Assembly (NCBI RefSeq): GCF_018780625.1
Contig: NZ_JADMJK010000082.1
Span: 1 to 41,714 of the forward strand
Direction of reading: 5' to 3'
Length of the DNA: 41,714 bases
Source of the DNA: Polaromonas sp.
GTDB lineage: Bacteria; Pseudomonadota; Gammaproteobacteria; Burkholderiales; Burkholderiaceae_C
In this document: in pieces, positions 8,113-41,714 of the stretch
Layout of the letters: each line of letters begins with the position of its first letter
Position numbering within the stretch: position 1 is the first letter of the stretch
Program-made: the position numbers and the translations under genes
The notes under the pieces: model-generated
Seen by the model: only the letters and a program-made list of their open reading frames with translations
What the model was told of the DNA's origin: nothing
Database searches by the model: none

Positions 8113-9354
8113 ATGGCTTCAAGTACCCACTCTTCACCAAAATCCATTTCAATGTTCCAGGTGCTGGCCTGCGGTGCGGCTATTGTGACGCTGTCCATGG
8201 GCATTCGCCACGGTTTTGGACTGTGGCTGCAGCCCATCACCCAAGCGCAGGGCTGGACCCGCGAAACCTTTGCCTTTGCCATTGCCATACAAAACCTTGC
8301 CTGGGGAATTTTCGGCATTTTCGCGGGCATGGTGGCCGACCGGTTTGGCGCCTTTCGAGTGATTGCGGGCGGCGCCGTGCTGTATGCGCTGGGTCTGGTG
8401 GGCATGGCGCTATCCCCGACGGGCCTGCTGTTCACGCTGACCACCGGCGTGCTCATTGGCGCAGCCCAGGCGGGCACCACCTATGCCGTGATTTACGGCG
8501 TGATTGGCCGCAATATCTCAGCCGACAAGCGCTCGTGGGCCATGGGGGTTGCCGCTGCAGCGGGGTCGTTTGGCCAGTTTTTGATGGTGCCGACCGAAGG
8601 CTTCCTGATCAGCAGCCTGGGCTGGCAAACGGCCTTGCTGGTGCTGAGCGGCGCGGTGCTGCTGATCGTGCCGATCGCGATGGGCCTGCGTGAGCCCGGC
8701 TTTGCAGGCGGAGCGCCCGCCAGGCGGGCGCAGAGCATTGGCCAGGCGCTGCGCGAGGCACTCAAGTACCCGAGCTTTCAGCTCCTGATGGCCGGCTACT
8801 TTGTTTGTGGCTTTCAGGTGGTGTTCATTGGCGTTCACATGCCCAGCTACCTCAAGGACAAAGGCCTGTCGCCGCAGGTGGCCGGCTATGCGCTCGCGCT
8901 GATTGGCCTGTTTAACGTGTTTGGCACCTACATTGCGGGCTCGCTGGGTCAGCGCATCGCCAAACGCAAGATATTGGCCACCATCTACCTGTCGCGCGCC
9001 GTCGTCATCGCCGTATTTCTCGCCGCGCCACTGAGCCCGGCCAGCGTCTATATTTTTTCCAGCCTGATGGGCCTGCTGTGGCTGTCGACGGTGCCGCCGA
9101 CCAACGCCATGGTGGCGCAGATTTTCGGCATCCAGCATATGTCGATGCTGAGCGGCTTCATTTTCTTTAGCCACCAGATCGGCTCGTTCATGGGCGTGTG
9201 GCTGGGCGGCTACCTGTATGACCGGACCGGCAGCTACGACATCGTCTGGTACATAGCGATTGCGCTGGGTGTGTTGGCAGCGCTGGTGAACCTGCCGGTG
9301 CGCGAAACGCCGATTGCCAGGCCCCACCATGGCAAGCTGCCGCAGGGGGCATGA
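8113..9354 (+). CDS. MFS transporter, OxlT/CynX-like
   Basis: From the ATG at 8113 the protein has 413 residues and about 12 hydrophobic segments. The frame stays open further upstream, but the extension is not hydrophobic and would cover the parE promoter, so I chose this start. The loop MVADRFGAFRVIAGG between helices 2 and 3 is the MFS signature. An N-terminal SMGIRHGFGLWLQPI segment is typical of the monocarboxylate/oxalate-formate antiporter group. The substrate is not visible. It diverges from parE and is followed one base later by a 39-codon ORF that may be co-translated. Confidence 0.88.
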   Translation: MASSTHSSPKSISMFQVLACGAAIVTLSMGIRHGFGLWLQPITQAQGWTRETFAFAIAIQNLAWGIFGIFAGMVADRFGAFRVIAGGAVLYALGLVGMALSPTGLLFTLTTGVLIGAAQAGTTYAVIYGVIGRNISADKRSWAMGVAAAAGSFGQFLMVPTEGFLISSLGWQTALLVLSGAVLLIVPIAMGLREPGFAGGAPARRAQSIGQALREALKYPSFQLLMAGYFVCGFQVVFIGVHMPSYLKDKGLSPQVAGYALALIGLFNVFGTYIAGSLGQRIAKRKILATIYLSRAVVIAVFLAAPLSPASVYIFSSLMGLLWLSTVPPTNAMVAQIFGIQHMSMLSGFIFFSHQIGSFMGVWLGGYLYDRTGSYDIVWYIAIALGVLAALVNLPVRETPIARPHHGKLPQGA

Positions 9355-9486: not shown

Positions 9487-9551
9487 CATATTTAAGCTTT
9501 TTAGCCCTTAGCCCAATAAGGGCGGGGATACCTAGCTACCAAAAACGTATC
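9487..9551. repeat. Hairpin plus degenerate GCTA...TATC palindromic element
   Basis: In the gap between the small membrane ORF and the methyltransferase, GCCCTTA (9504-9510) pairs perfectly with TAAGGGC (9517-9523) around a 6-nt loop. Eleven bases later, 9535-9551 matches the 17-bp element in coaBC at 12 of 17 positions. No U-run follows the stem on the plus strand, so a simple terminator is less likely. It looks like a longer, decayed copy of a dispersed repeat. Confidence 0.45.
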
Positions 9552-21037: not shown

Positions 21038-21056
21038 TAACGCTGCCCGGTGGCAC

Positions 21057-21099
21057 AAAAAAAAGCGGCGCTGCAGTTGAACTGCAGCGCCGCTTTTTT
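21057..21099. terminator. Strong bidirectional terminator
   Basis: A perfect 13-bp stem (21065-21077 with 21081-21093) has a TGA loop and is flanked by A8 and T6. It lies between the convergent SlyD-like gene and the glycine-zipper lipoprotein gene and can serve both. Confidence 0.92.
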
Positions 21100-21113
21100 A
21101 TGAAAGCCGATGA

Positions 21114-22360: not shown

Positions 22361-23614
22361 TTACGCGCCGATTCTGCTTGCGATCTCCTGAACCAGCCGG
22401 CGCGCGAGCGAGAGCTTGGAAGCTCTGGGCAGCGCAGTGTTGCCCTGCGCGTCCACCAGCAGCAGCGCATTGTGGTCCTGGCCAAAGGTATCGGGTCCGA
22501 TGTTGCCCACCAGCAGCGGCACTTTTTTGCGCAGGCGCTTGGCTTGGGCGTTCTCCAGCAGATCGTGGCTTTCTGCGGCAAAACCCACGCAATACAACGC
22601 GCCCGCCTGGGCCGCGGCAGACCGGGCGACGGTGGCCAGAATGTCGGTATTTTCAGCAAATTCCAGTTGCGGCGCGTGGCCAGAACCATCCTTCTTGATT
22701 TTTTGCATGGCGGGCGCTGCGGGCCGCCAATCGGCCACAGCGGCAGTAGCTATAAAAATAGTAGCAAACTTGGCATGCGATACAACGGCATCAAGCATAT
22801 CTGATGCCGACTTCACATCCACCCGCGTAACCCCGCGCGGCGTGGGCAGGCTCACCGGCCCCGCAACCAGCGTCACTTGGGCGCCGGCCTCACGCGCCGC
22901 GCGTGCAATCGCAAAGCCCATTTTTCCGCTCGACAGATTGGTGATGCCGCGCACCGGGTCGATCGCCTCGTAGGTCGGGCCAGCCGTCACCAGCACCTGC
23001 TGGCCGGCCAGTACCTTGGGCGTAAAAAACGCAATGACGTCCTCCAGCAACTGGTCGGGCTCCAGCATGCGGCCGTCGCCGGTCTCGCCGCAAGCCTGAA
23101 AGCCTGTCCCCACGCCCAGCACCGTCGCGCCATCCGCCGCCAACTGAAGCAAGTTGCGCTGGGTCGCCGGATGCGCGTACATCTCGCGGTTCATCGCCGG
23201 CGCCAGCAGCAGCGGCACCTGGTCGAGCGGCCTGGCCAGACACATCAGGCTCAGCAGGTCATCGGCCCGGCCATGCAGCAGTTTGGCCATAAAGTCGGCG
23301 CTGCAAGGCGCAATCAAGATTGCGTCGGCTTCCCGAGACAGGTTGATATGCGCCATGTTGTTGGCCTCACGGCTGTCCCATTGGCTGGTGTAGACCGGCC
23401 GACCACTGAGCGCCTGCATCGTGACCGGGGTGATGAACTGCTCGGCCGCCTCGGTCATGACCACCTGCACGGTGGCGCCGGCCTTGATCAGTGCACGGCA
23501 CAACTCGGCCGCCTTATAGCAGGCAATCCCGCCCGACAAGCCCAGCAAGAGATGTTTGCCGGCCAGATCCTGCGTACAGTCGCCACTGCTCGGGCCGTTT
23601 GTTTCATTTGTCAT
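22361..23614 (-). CDS. coaBC: Bifunctional phosphopantothenoylcysteine decarboxylase/synthase
   Basis: From the ATG at 23614 the protein has 417 residues; the longer open frame to 23659 is less likely. The N-terminal CoaC half starts HLLLGLSGGIACYKAAELCR and has an FMN-binding Rossmann-like fold, with PAMNREMY as the PxMNxxMW substrate clamp. The C-terminal CoaB half has VTAGPTYEAIDPVRGITNLSSGKMG and then AAVADWRP. It makes 4'-phosphopantetheine from phosphopantothenate, cysteine and CTP. Near residues 284-289 the sequence ATIFIA is encoded by a 17-bp palindromic element. Confidence 0.95.
   Translation of the reverse strand: MTNETNGPSSGDCTQDLAGKHLLLGLSGGIACYKAAELCRALIKAGATVQVVMTEAAEQFITPVTMQALSGRPVYTSQWDSREANNMAHINLSREADAILIAPCSADFMAKLLHGRADDLLSLMCLARPLDQVPLLLAPAMNREMYAHPATQRNLLQLAADGATVLGVGTGFQACGETGDGRMLEPDQLLEDVIAFFTPKVLAGQQVLVTAGPTYEAIDPVRGITNLSSGKMGFAIARAAREAGAQVTLVAGPVSLPTPRGVTRVDVKSASDMLDAVVSHAKFATIFIATAAVADWRPAAPAMQKIKKDGSGHAPQLEFAENTDILATVARSAAAQAGALYCVGFAAESHDLLENAQAKRLRKKVPLLVGNIGPDTFGQDHNALLLVDAQGNTALPRASKLSLARRLVQEIASRIGA
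22749..22765. repeat. 17-bp GCTA-TAGC palindromic element inside coaBC
   Basis: GCTATAAAAATAGTAGC (plus strand) lies inside coaBC. On the coding strand it reads GCTACTATTTTTATAGC, giving ATIFIA with GCT in codon phase. It is AT-rich in a GC-rich gene and matches the DUF455 copy at 15 of 17 positions. Confidence 0.55.
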
Positions 23615-30478: not shown

Positions 30479-31300
30479 ATGCCCAACACTCGCCTCCCCG
30501 CCGAATTGCGACAGCTTGCCCTGCAAGCCCTGATGGAAGCTGATCCACAACAAAAAGTGCTTCTAGCCCATGCCTTGCAAGAAAACTCTGCTGCTTTTTT
30601 TATAGCACATGATACTGTTTTACAGCCACCGACCGGCCTGCCCGGGTGCCCGGCGCGGCCGGAGTTGCGAGTCCACCTGGACATGCCCAGGCGTTCGGCC
30701 TTCACCCAGGAAGGTCTGGCCGCCCTGCTGCACGCCGTGACGCACATTGAGTTCAACGCCATCAACCTGGCACTCGATGCCGCCTGGCGTTTTTCAGGCA
30801 TGCCGCCCGCGTACTACCTGGACTGGGTGAAAGTGGCGGCTGAAGAGGCGCAACACTTCAGCCTGCTGCAAGCCCTGCTGCAAAGCATGGGTTACAGCTA
30901 CGGCGACTTTCCCGGGCATACTGGCCTGTGGGACATGACTGAAAAAACCGAAGGCGACGTGCTGGCGCGCATGGCCCTGGTGCCACGCACGCTGGAAGCC
31001 CGGGGGCTGGACGCCACGCCCCCCATGCAGGCCAAGCTGCGCAAGGTCGGCACCCCCGACGCCCTGCGCGCGGTCGCCATTCTGGACATCATTCTGCGCG
31101 ACGAAATCGGCCACGTAGCCATCGGCAATCACTGGTACCGCGTGCTGTGCGCCCAGCGCGGCCTGGAACCGCTGGCCACCTACGCCAGGCTGGCCCGGCA
31201 GTACGGCGCACCCCGCCTGAAGGGCCCGCTGAACCTCGCCGCCCGCCGCGATGCCGGGTTTGACGAAGCCGAACTGGCCCTGTTGAGCGCAAGCACCTGA
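30479..31300 (+). CDS. DUF455 ferritin-like protein
   Basis: From the ATG at 30479 the protein has 273 residues. It has a ferritin-like di-iron pattern: [12 protein letters not shown] (about 89-100), [13 protein letters not shown] (about 122-134) and later [14 protein letters not shown]. The Glu and E-x2-H residues are those of DUF455, which is related to MiaE-type hydroxylases. The substrate is unknown. Residues 38-43 (AAFFIA) come from a 17-bp AT-rich palindromic element near the N terminus. It diverges from the gamma-carbonic-anhydrase-like gene with 90 bp between starts. Confidence 0.85.
30590..30606. repeat. 17-bp GCTG-TAGC palindromic element inside the DUF455 gene
   Basis: GCTGCTTTTTTTATAGC encodes AAFFIA with GCT in codon phase. 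It matches the coaBC coding-strand copy at 15 of 17 positions. The gene is otherwise GC-rich. Confidence 0.55.
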
Positions 31301-39818: not shown

Positions 39819-39910
39819 GGCGGGGATTTTGACACGCGGGTTTTACCAAGAACGTGGGCCAGGGCGCCACCCCTGCCGATGCCGGCGCCCTCTCCCCTAA
39901 AATCAGGACT

Positions 39911-41714
39911 GTGACCAACGCCTCTTTACCTTCCCCCTTGCCCGGCACGCGCCGCCCCATACGCGACCTTCCCGACGAGTTGATCAGCCAGATTGCCGCC
40001 GGCGAAGTGGTTGAACGCCCCGCCTCGGTGGTGCGCGAGTTGGTCGACAACGCGCTGGACGCCGGAGCCCGCCAGGTCACGGTGCGGCTGATGGCCGGCG
40101 GCGTGCGGCTGATTCTGGTTGAAGACGATGGCCTGGGCATTCCGCGCGAAGAGTTGCCTGTGGCGCTGCGCCGCCATGCCACCAGCAAGATTGCCTCGCT
40201 GCAAGACCTGGAGGCGGTGGGCACCATGGGTTTTCGGGGCGAGGCCCTGGCCGCCATCAACTCCATTGCCGACATGAGCCTGCTGTCCAGAACGCTGGAC
40301 ACCGAGCACGCCTGGCAACTGGACGGCCGGACCGGCGAGCTGACCCCGGCGGCGCGTAACCGCGGCACCAGCGTGGAGGTGCGCGAGCTGTTTTACGCCA
40401 CCCCCGCCCGCCGCAAATTCCTGAAAACCGATGCCACCGAGCTGGCCCACTGCATTGAGGCCGTGCGCCGCCACGCGCTGGTGCGGCCCGACGTGGGCTT
40501 TGCCATCTGGCACGAAGGCAAGCTGGTCGAGCAGTGGCGGGCCTGCAGCGGTGCTTCTGCGCATGACCAGCGCCTGGCCGACGTGCTGGGCAGCGACTTC
40601 GTGGCGCAGTCGGTGGCCGTGCAGTACGAAAGCCCGGCGCGCCGGGCCGACGGCCAGCCCGCGGTGCGGGTCTGGGGCCGCGCCGGCATACCGGACGCCG
40701 CCCGCGCGCGCGCCGACCAGCAGTTTGCCTATGTCAATGGCCGCTTCGTGCGCGACAAGGTGCTGACGCACGCAGCGCGCAGCGCCTACGAAGATGTGCT
40801 GCACGGCCACCGCCAGCCGGTGTATGCGCTGTACATCGAGATGGACCCGGCCCGTGTCGACGTGAACGTGCACCCGACCAAGATCGAAGTGCGCTTTCGC
40901 GACAGCCGCGAGGTGCACCAGGCGGTGCGCTACGCCACCGAAGACGCGCTGGCCCCGCCCCGCGCCGCCCTGGCGGCACAGGCCGACAGGCCCGACACGC
41001 CGCCACAGCCCGCCGCCGAAATAATCAAGGAAAAACTGCCGTTTTCCCAACAAGGATGGGCGCAACCAGCTATTAATTTAAGAGCAGCCCAGGACGGACG
41101 CGTCGCCGACTTCGAAGCAACCTGGCCGGCGCGTTCGACCTCAAGCAGTCCAGCTCCCGCTGCAAATCTGGACACAGCCCCCAGCGCAGCGGCCGACAGC
41201 CTGCCGGCCTGGCCGCTGGGCCGCGCCATCGCGCAGCTGCAGGGCATTTACGTGCTGGCCGAAAACGCCCAGGGGCTGGTGATTGTCGACATGCACGCCG
41301 CCCACGAGCGCATCGTCTACGAACGGCTGAAAAGCCAGCTCGACACCGCCACCGCCCGCATTGCGAGCCAGCCGCTGCTGATTCCGGCCACCTTTGCCGC
41401 CAGCCCGCAGGAGGTCGCAACGGCCGAAGCCAGCGCCGAAACGCTTGGCACGCTGGGCCTGGAGATCACCGCCTTTTCCCCCCGGACGCTGGCGGTGCGC
41501 GCCGTTCCCACCAGCCTGGCACTGGGCGACGCGGTGGAACTGGCGAGAAGCGTGCTGGCCGAACTGGCTCAAATGGATTCCAGCAGCGTGGTTCAGCGGG
41601 CGCATAACGAGTTGCTGTCGACCATGGCCTGCCACGGTGCCGTGCGCGCCAACCGGCGCTTGAACCTGGATGAAATGAACGCCCTGCTGCGCCAGATGGA
41701 AGCGACCGAGCGAT
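39911..41714 (+). CDS. mutL: DNA mismatch repair protein MutL (partial)
   Basis: The gene starts at GTG 39911 and runs off the right edge; 601 codons are present. The N-terminal GHKL ATPase has RELVDNALDAGA (E43, N47), EDDGLGI and GTMGFRGEALAAI. The C-terminal domain contains DMHAAHERIVYE (460-471), which fits the D-x-HA-x2-E-x4-E nicking-endonuclease motif. That is expected in bacteria without MutH. The linker includes a 17-bp palindromic element encoding residues from 387. Confidence 0.95.
   Translation, partial: MTNASLPSPLPGTRRPIRDLPDELISQIAAGEVVERPASVVRELVDNALDAGARQVTVRLMAGGVRLILVEDDGLGIPREELPVALRRHATSKIASLQDLEAVGTMGFRGEALAAINSIADMSLLSRTLDTEHAWQLDGRTGELTPAARNRGTSVEVRELFYATPARRKFLKTDATELAHCIEAVRRHALVRPDVGFAIWHEGKLVEQWRACSGASAHDQRLADVLGSDFVAQSVAVQYESPARRADGQPAVRVWGRAGIPDAARARADQQFAYVNGRFVRDKVLTHAARSAYEDVLHGHRQPVYALYIEMDPARVDVNVHPTKIEVRFRDSREVHQAVRYATEDALAPPRAALAAQADRPDTPPQPAAEIIKEKLPFSQQGWAQPAINLRAAQDGRVADFEATWPARSTSSSPAPAANLDTAPSAAADSLPAWPLGRAIAQLQGIYVLAENAQGLVIVDMHAAHERIVYERLKSQLDTATARIASQPLLIPATFAASPQEVATAEASAETLGTLGLEITAFSPRTLAVRAVPTSLALGDAVELARSVLAELAQMDSSSVVQRAHNELLSTMACHGAVRANRRLNLDEMNALLRQMEATER
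41069..41085. repeat. 17-bp GCTA-GAGC palindromic element in the mutL linker
   Basis: GCTATTAATTTAAGAGC encodes AINLRA and keeps GCT in codon phase. Read on the other strand it matches the coaBC copy at 11 of 17 positions. It lies in the disordered linker between MutL domains, where a foreign short segment would be tolerated. Confidence 0.45.

Follow-up and report, generated by a model that had tools for sequence, protein, structure and literature searches.

A putative 68-bp DNA recognition sequence on the chromosomes of part of the Comamonadaceae, spelled with synonymous codons in coaBC and mutL

Three genes in a stretch of 41,714 nucleotides from Polaromonas sp. (hereafter the window, meaning the whole stretch that was analysed) carry copies of an element of 68 bp that, as its matches indicate, is dispersed over the chromosomes of numerous bacteria from water and soil, all members of one family. 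We infer that this element is a putative chromosomal sequence recognized as duplex DNA in part of the Comamonadaceae. Constraint on the DNA itself, coupled with a trans-acting reader, is very probably the best explanation of the patterns described below. Such a reader would recognize the element as DNA, and lineages losing it would lose the motif everywhere. More tentatively, motif-carrying DNA would be preferentially acquired through uptake and recombination, and the resulting molecular drive would fill tolerant places and shift the spelling of the element genome by genome.

Architecture of the element and its copies in the window

The initial annotation of the window described a dispersed 17-bp palindrome-like unit with four copies, starting at positions 22749, 30590 and 41069 and, in decayed form, at 9535. 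The copies at 22749 and 30590 match the search pattern without mismatch, the copy at 41069 belongs to a strong full-length element, and the copy at 9535 proved weak. The 17-mers of coaBC and DUF455 indeed agree at 15 of 17 positions, and GCT is a codon in coaBC, DUF455 and mutL alike. The unit, however, is not 17 bp long. The 17-mer is the 3' palindrome, in gap-free register, of a 68-bp element that is recovered when 70 copies from four genomes (that of the window, G000, together with G024, G055 and G075) are aligned over 68 columns with zero gaps. Information in these copies begins some 46 bp ahead of the palindrome and ends a few bases past it. The 68-column consensus, TTTTTnAAnnAAATnnGCCnnTnGCGCAnnnnnnnnnnGCGCnAGnAGCTATTATTTTTATAGCAAnn, displays three blocks in fixed register: a left part that is T-rich and then A-rich, a GCGC/GCCC dyad, and the AT-rich GCTAT..ATAGC dyad that constitutes the palindrome. 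No inverted termini were seen in this consensus. A covariance model derived from the alignment (R1) excludes three genic copies, namely those in coaBC of G000 and of G055 and the one in DUF455 of G000; the mutL copy of the window is also absent from its rows, the gene identity of which was established for part of them. Despite the omission of known coaBC and DUF455 copies, R1 detects coaBC copies across all 68 columns with scores of up to 50.4 bits. When applied to 400 kb of the G024 chromosome it retained 60 copies, 59 of them exactly 68 nt long, with a GC content of 29-56%.

The features of the window that concern the element are the following:

9488 to 9544, plus strand: weak decayed copy, probably intergenic (R1 12.3 bits, E 0.23)
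22361 to 23614, minus strand: coaBC, with Pfam Flavoprotein and DFP; the start is our choice inside a longer open frame
22745 to 22812, minus strand: 68-bp element in coaBC (R1 19.7 bits, E 0.0021, columns 1-68), residues around KSASDMLDAVVSHAKFATIFIAT, synonymous codons
22749 to 22765, minus strand: 3' palindrome of the coaBC copy, GCTACTATTTTTATAGC, the 17-mer of the initial annotation (pattern match, 0 mismatches)
30479 to 31300, plus strand: DUF455 gene (PF04305), with the start deduced from the reading frame
30543 to 30610, plus strand: 68-bp element in the N-terminal part of the DUF455 gene (R1 24.3 bits, E 1e-4), at the same place in orthologues
30590 to 30606, plus strand: 3' palindrome of the DUF455 copy, GCTGCTTTTTTTATAGC (pattern match, 0 mismatches)
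39854 to 41713, plus strand: mutL open frame with an uncertain start, continuing to the window end; Pfam DNA_mis_repair and MutL_C flank the element
41022 to 41089, plus strand: 68-bp element in the MutL linker, peptide around EKLPFSQQGWAQPAINLRA (R1 43.8 bits, E 4e-10)
41069 to 41085, plus strand: 3' palindrome in mutL, GCTATTAATTTAAGAGC (4 positions differ from the pattern)

The pattern GCTRCTWTTTTTATAGC, with up to 3 mismatches, occurs three times in the window against 0.16 expected, and none of 100 composition-matched shuffles reached three, so that the copy number exceeds chance as the initial annotation anticipated. The third of these matches, at 8795, gave no match to the 68-column R1 model, and the mutL copy is the best full-length member in the window although it falls outside the list of matches with up to 3 mismatches. 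The coaBC palindrome is also matched by R1 in the opposite orientation, at 22.8 bits and with an insertion, and a clear copy is present in relatives at the neighborhood matching positions 9488-9544. The coaBC gene of the window is 94% identical to that of a Polaromonas MAG, and the nearest named relatives of the window are Polaromonas. Elsewhere in the window, positions 21056-21102 hold a 23-bp inverted repeat, 96% complementary and flanked by A and T runs, which looks like a strong bidirectional terminator between genes.

The dyads are not accompanied by covariation. The named structure pairs in 74.6% of cells versus 76.3% in shuffles; 493 of the 500 shuffles equaled or exceeded the observed value, and the RNAalifold consensus fold has 3 pairs and no more. 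No Rfam family was found in the window at the gathering threshold. A mutual-information scan had hinted at pairs -21/-7 and -24/-4, and the corresponding hairpin was rejected by the comparison of pairing with shuffles. Since covariation is absent and the A- or T-runs of the element may lie on either strand, we read the dyads as features of duplex DNA.

Synonymous-codon constraint in coaBC, DUF455 and mutL

The initial annotation suggested that a mobile or gene-converted short element had added peptides to the genes that carry it. Comparison with orthologues contradicts this for coaBC. The CoaBC segment aligns gap-free with the solved CoaB proteins 6tgv, 1u7u (which we take to be E. coli CoaB) and 5int, and consequently nothing was inserted in coaBC. 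The DUF455 site keeps its location in Polaromonas, Acidovorax, Giesbergeria, Simplicispira and others, and none of the 43 other DUF455 orthologues lacks the approximately 22 codons as a block, with lengths varying by a few residues in some of them and Hydrogenophaga being longer. In MutL, the element lies in the linker over the peptide W-A-Q-P-A-I-N-F, which presumably resembles a beta-clamp-binding motif. Motif-free mutL genes from four genomes encode three similar peptides (WAQPGMDF, WAQPAMDF and WRQPAIPF), mostly with GC-rich codons, and one different peptide. The linker is too variable to tell the presence or absence of an insertion; the coaBC and mutL peptides, however, are not added by the element.

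The coaBC peptide A-x-[IV]-F-[IV]-[AS] is widely common to loci with and without the motif (three rows are partial), and the DNA beneath it is either the palindrome, spelled with rare codons (GCT ACT GTT TTT ATA or GTA), or else a run of ordinary GC-rich codons. ATA represents 2.4-3.8% of Ile codons and GTA 3.2-5.2% of Val codons elsewhere in coaBC genes, and one or the other is used at the palindrome position in 30 of 80 genes. The palindrome occurs anywhere in coaBC in 26 of these 80 genes, whereas 200 within-gene synonymous permutations gave 1.66 such genes on average and 6 at most. This set comprises the window and 79 of 80 loci, locus L049 being left out even though its site bears the motif. 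The recurrence of the same amino acids where the DNA motif is missing, which the initial annotation had named as an outcome that would count against a DNA element, was thus found for coaBC and in part for mutL; the synonymous codons are nevertheless constrained.

This constraint extends well upstream of the palindrome. Genes were grouped by the palindrome only, and the 46 upstream columns, which represent the independent part of the test, were scored against synonymous permutations. All motif-bearing genes scored above the null: 28 of 28 for coaBC (means of 8.0 versus -12.0 bits), 13 of 13 for DUF455 (16.1 versus -2.3 bits), and 21 of 21 for mutL (27.2 versus 5.3 bits, with duplicate loci L172, L177, L199 and L200 left out), a mean excess of 18 to 22 bits. 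Motif-free coaBC genes showed a small excess (34 of 52 above the null, mean +3.4 bits, p 0.0016), and the element site was still the best-scoring window in 31 of these 52 genes. Motif-free DUF455 and mutL genes were above the null in 12 of 24 and 4 of 5 cases, respectively; one of the five mutL genes (L171, genome G041) looks like a decayed copy. The excess over synonymous permutations indicates that the DNA of the whole element, and not just the protein, is constrained in the three genes. Translated in frame 0, the 3' part of the consensus gives AQAATIFIA, a sequence similar to the coaBC peptide in numerous species. This similarity, together with the high-scoring site in motif-free coaBC genes, makes it attractive to think that the family may have originated from the coaBC segment, but a pre-adapted peptide under selection would give the same picture.

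Distribution over genomes, chromosomes and genes

The genome of the window (3.62 Mb in 259 contigs) contains 52 pattern matches with up to 2 mismatches versus 5 for the reversed pattern. Palindrome counts, also with up to 2 mismatches, were 105 in this genome and 0 to 355 in 24 genomes of the same genus, with G013 and G018 at zero. In 16 genomes from other families of the order the counts were 0 to 14 (reversed control, 0 to 27), and in 49 named genomes searched with a slightly wider pattern they were 0 to 454 (reversed control, 0 to 21). Genome counts far above composition-matched and reversed controls therefore uphold the earlier proposal of a frame-tolerated family dispersed in the Comamonadaceae. 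The full model, applied to 45 genomes, returned at least 100 copies in 21 of them. Two Comamonas had at least 84 and at least 55 copies, eight genomes had between 1 and 11, and 14 genomes had 0; these per-genome counts are lower bounds, as at most 114 candidates were scored in each genome and the filters were stricter. G014 and G046, and likewise G020 and G041, are apparently the same genomes under two handles. Within the genus, G013 and G018 hold 0 and 1 full copies, and their comparison with the other genomes offers a natural way of finding the reader by gene content. The one Ramlibacter genome is without the 68-bp element; two Ramlibacter loci (L054 and L064), in the spacer orthologous to L060:6987, have other short repeated dyad-like sequences that differ per locus. 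Palindrome counts fall with GC content (rho -0.52), and palindromes are about equally frequent on both strands. An apparent strand polarity along the chromosome was an artefact of listing that disappeared on recount.

We examined 400 kb of the chromosome of G024, which is most likely Polaromonas naphthalenivorans CJ2, with contigs C1 and C5 being 100% identical to two plasmids of this strain over the 20 kb compared. With E values not exceeding 0.0053, 60 copies were counted in this stretch, an average of one every 6.7 kb that would, if extrapolated, give about 660 copies on the 4.41-Mb chromosome. These are the copies kept from 76 R1 matches, the other 16 being weaker (E 0.02 or more) and many of them the reverse reading of a palindrome already counted. 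The small contigs, which are plasmids, gave in contrast a single R1 match versus about 20 expected (Poisson 3e-8) in 136 kb taken from eight contigs totaling 956 kb. This sole match (L244:8337-8404, 26.3 bits) may represent a copy proper to the plasmid or else a chromosomal segment that the plasmid carries. A blastn search of plasmid and phage collections with a single 68-mer, an insensitive search given the degenerate query, gave no match.

According to our simple gene caller, 31 of the 60 copies are intergenic, 12 lie across a gene end and 17 are inside genes, 9 of these on the gene strand and 8 on the opposite strand. The caller misses genes, and the copy at 272949, called intergenic, is suggested by relatives to lie in a coding frame. 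The miaA-like gene that bears one of the opposite-strand copies had no orthologue in the loci compared. The palindrome places its G at the first codon position in 14 of the 17 genic copies, and in a 15th if a shift of 1 nt is allowed. Stops close one reading phase in 70 of 70 alignment rows, and this accounts in part for the shared codon phase. The two remaining phases are open at similar frequency, and genes mostly use one of them; this preference for phase 0 probably reflects which peptide is tolerated.

Copies are often found just past stop codons or between convergent genes. Among spacers of at least 50 bp, 13 of 32 convergent ones contain a copy, compared with 27 of the 173 remaining ones (p 0.0026). 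The presence of a copy often goes together with a greater spacer length than in relatives whose corresponding spacer has none (at L045:4837, 13 of 16 relatives are shorter and 3 longer), and no precise empty-site junction was found among the spacers of relatives that were compared. Copies are spaced more evenly than random in the one 400-kb region (coefficient of variation of 0.74 versus 0.97, with 0.75% of simulations as even, p 0.0075). The first 0.5 Mb of the G024 chromosome (contig C9), a bin picked post hoc, holds 26 of 100 listed palindromes (114 sites in total) versus 12.9 expected (p 0.0009), and the first 0.5 Mb of G058:C1 holds 15 of 78 versus 10.4 expected (p 0.10). The remaining 0.5-Mb bins of G058 and of G024, for the 100 of 114 sites listed, revealed no clear trend.

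Some element positions are kept across species and genera. When 73 sites (69 of 82 R1 matches and the four of the window) were clustered across loci, 17 were unshared. A conserved Polaromonas copy, probably coding, lies about 9 kb from coaBC in six loci (L032:19233, L034:18749, L036:19011, L037:19346, L038:19023 and L039:14808), with a peptide that resembles VDRAQEAIESIA. Another copy is located at the start of a dehydrogenase-like gene, GCTATGAAAATAATAGT (L032:19484, L034:19030, L037:20373 and L039:15791); the palindrome spans the ATG in three of the four loci, L032 being a variant without it, and this copy may influence translation start. A further copy, at L211:19216 (219216 in the coordinates of the joined G024 stretch), has an ATG of its own and would encode a signal-peptide-like sequence.

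The behavior of the element is coherent genome by genome. The element score of coaBC tracks the palindrome count of the genome (Spearman rho 0.80 in 48 of 49 genomes; 0.71 with GC removed). By our grouping, exceptions in the motif-free group are L083 (255 palindromes), L034 (106), L091 (72), L102 (30) and L093 (24), and in reverse L048, L074, L081 and L089 bear the coaBC motif with 21-29 palindromes. Spelling is also genome-specific. Position -21 is G in 62 of 65 copies of G024, 24 of 25 of G075 and 14 of 17 of G055, and C in 27 of 33 copies of G000; these four genomes were typed with at least 15 copies each, and several others with 1 to 5. The Ala codon at this position in coaBC and mutL follows the spelling: C-type genomes have GCC at 16 of 19 sites, G-type genomes at 2 of 7 (Fisher p 0.014). 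The association is modest (p 0.037 with one site per genome), both values being uncorrected for phylogeny.

Gene content was compared with these counts for two candidate systems. RAYT is present in 43 of 45 genomes, zero-copy genomes included, and was not found in one genome with at least 84 copies. A copy lies within 360 bp in 6 of 20 RAYT loci, and overall density there is ordinary (12 copies in 86 kb). Mobilization by RAYT was rejected, since its presence does not track copy number. ComEC, found in 41 of 43 genomes, is nearly universal; it is also present in the motif-free genomes that were searched and does not separate them from the motif-bearing ones.

Explanations, known systems and significance

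An uptake-like molecular drive, analogous to that of the uptake sequences of Neisseriaceae and Pasteurellaceae, is a serious candidate to which we give slightly less than even chances. Preferential uptake would explain the many weakly constrained copies in tolerant places, the coherent spellings, the equal strands, and the rarity on plasmids, which we would also expect of sequences of the uptake type. Several observations count against it: the length of 68 bp with two dyads, the bias toward convergent spacers, the longer spacers around intergenic copies (as insertions would give), the occurrence of ComEC regardless of the motif, which does not separate the genomes, Acidovorax GW101-3H11, which has 255 palindromes but none in coaBC, the modest strength of the dialect association, and the description of uptake sequences as neither palindromic nor very evenly spaced (PMC1939737). 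Copy density is also several-fold below the 1543 to 3770 copies per genome given in an excerpt of PMC3630211. The element could alternatively be the binding site of a protein that organizes or segregates the chromosome (of nucleoid, condensin-loading or division-site type), with each copy under selection and all sites freed once the protein is lost. We consider this the main rival, though less likely than not. The two dyads, the A/T runs on either strand and the lack of covariation fit a dimeric protein that binds duplex DNA, and the even spacing, the preference for the chromosome over plasmids in G024, the positions kept across species and genera, the disappearance of the motif in sister lineages and the post hoc excess in the first 0.5 Mb of G024 and G058 point the same way. 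Hundreds of sites, however, would each have to follow a changing spelling, a heavy selective demand, and bins beyond the first 0.5 Mb gave no clear trend.

Movement of a small mobile element (MITE or REPIN-like, and perhaps moved by the single RAYT, the one candidate transposase that we checked) into spacers and tolerant in-frame regions, with genic copies as old insertions, is improbable. It would account for the fixed length, for genome-specific spellings that resemble element subfamilies, for the longer spacers and the enrichment between convergent genes, and for the copies close to 6 of 20 RAYT loci, and intragenic palindromic elements do exist in Rickettsia (excerpt of PMC10969869). It is nevertheless refuted for coaBC by the gap-free alignment with solved CoaB proteins, no DUF455 orthologue without the block was found, an old insertion would not hold synonymous codons across genera, and neither the occurrence of RAYT nor the density of copies at its loci supports it. 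A structure in RNA or single-stranded DNA, such as a terminator or a processing or regulatory hairpin, is very improbable: it is invited by the dyads and by copies right after stop codons or between convergent genes, but is contradicted by pairing no higher than in shuffles, by the consensus fold of 3 pairs, by genic copies on both gene strands, and by the absence of Rfam hits in the window above the gathering threshold. The explanation that we find hardest to credit is chance, AT-rich codon bias or convergence at the protein level. The coaBC peptide and partly the mutL peptide are conserved without the motif, counts fall with GC, and motif-free coaBC genes display a small excess; yet in the 49 named genomes reversed-pattern controls do not exceed 21 per genome when palindromes reach 454, the synonymous permutation null is exceeded, the correlation survives the removal of GC, and 43 of the 60 copies are not wholly within genes. 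DNA-level constraint with a trans-acting reader remains our preferred explanation.

It is useful to place the element among known systems. Uptake sequences are about 10 to 30 bp long with a short core of about 9-12 bp, and we know of none that approaches 68 bp with two dyads. To our knowledge, they are established in two families only, Neisseriaceae and Pasteurellaceae. According to excerpts of PMC1939737, a large share of them lies within open reading frames without orientation bias, they are not palindromic, drive is given as their explanation, and their spacing is significantly even (citing others), yet not very even. Their dialects are conserved within species (excerpt of PMC3630211). The element resembles the DUS of Neisseriaceae and the USS of Pasteurellaceae, as far as these excerpts describe them (PMC1939737, PMC3630211), in its many dispersed genic and intergenic copies on both strands, some evenness, and species dialects. 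It differs in being longer, endowed with dyads, rarer, biased toward convergent spacers, and located in another bacterial family. By the features used to recognize DUS and USS, we found over-representation without strand bias and coherent dialects, but no short non-palindromic core.

REP sequences and REPINs have a hairpin kept by compensatory change, and their copy number tracks RAYT. As short palindromic repeats that are frequent near gene ends and form genome-specific families they are similar to the element, which in contrast shows no covariation, is not extragenic (17 of 60 copies are fully genic and 12 lie at gene ends), has a copy number that RAYT presence does not track, and is under synonymous constraint. 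The sites matS, SlmA or Noc sites, and parS are likewise chromosomal palindromic sites for a dimeric protein; the 68-bp element is much longer and more numerous. The palindromic elements of Rickettsia also resemble it as repeats read in frame inside protein genes (excerpt of PMC10969869). Those elements, however, are insertions of about 150 bp, whereas the coaBC segment is no insertion. The beta-proteobacterial repeat element BRE (Bordetella, Polaromonas and others) is a dispersed repeat that occurs in Comamonadaceae with some copies inside genes; an excerpt of PMC3110155 describes it as about 90 bp long, 64-79% GC in Bordetella, with at most 29 copies per genome and tandem arrays. Identity with BRE was rejected on this description rather than on its sequence, as the 68-bp element has 29-56% GC and far more copies. 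Our literature search found no description of the 68-bp element. The genome paper of Polaromonas JS666, which an excerpt of PMC10969869 cites for MITEs, lay outside that search, and the element may have been mentioned before. In term look-ups in two REP surveys (parts of PMC12306157 and PMC3733652), the genus names looked for were absent.

With somewhat more reserve than for the drive itself, we entertain the possibility that the element represents a third, independent kind of self-DNA recognition, in which Comamonadaceae chromosomes would be watermarked by hundreds of composite 68-bp sites rewarded by a reader, with coaBC and mutL re-spelled in rare synonymous codons according to the spelling of each lineage. 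That essential or central genes such as coaBC and mutL spell the element with rare synonymous codons suggests that the DNA itself is read in the cell. Because species with and without the motif occur in one genus, the choice between drive and function is testable. If the proposal is true, the element would be a lineage-wide DNA watermark beyond the two families with uptake sequences, or else a new chromosome-organizing system in a large environmental group. Either way, genes such as coaBC carry a long DNA-level signal beneath the protein code, and this affects analyses of codon usage and selection.
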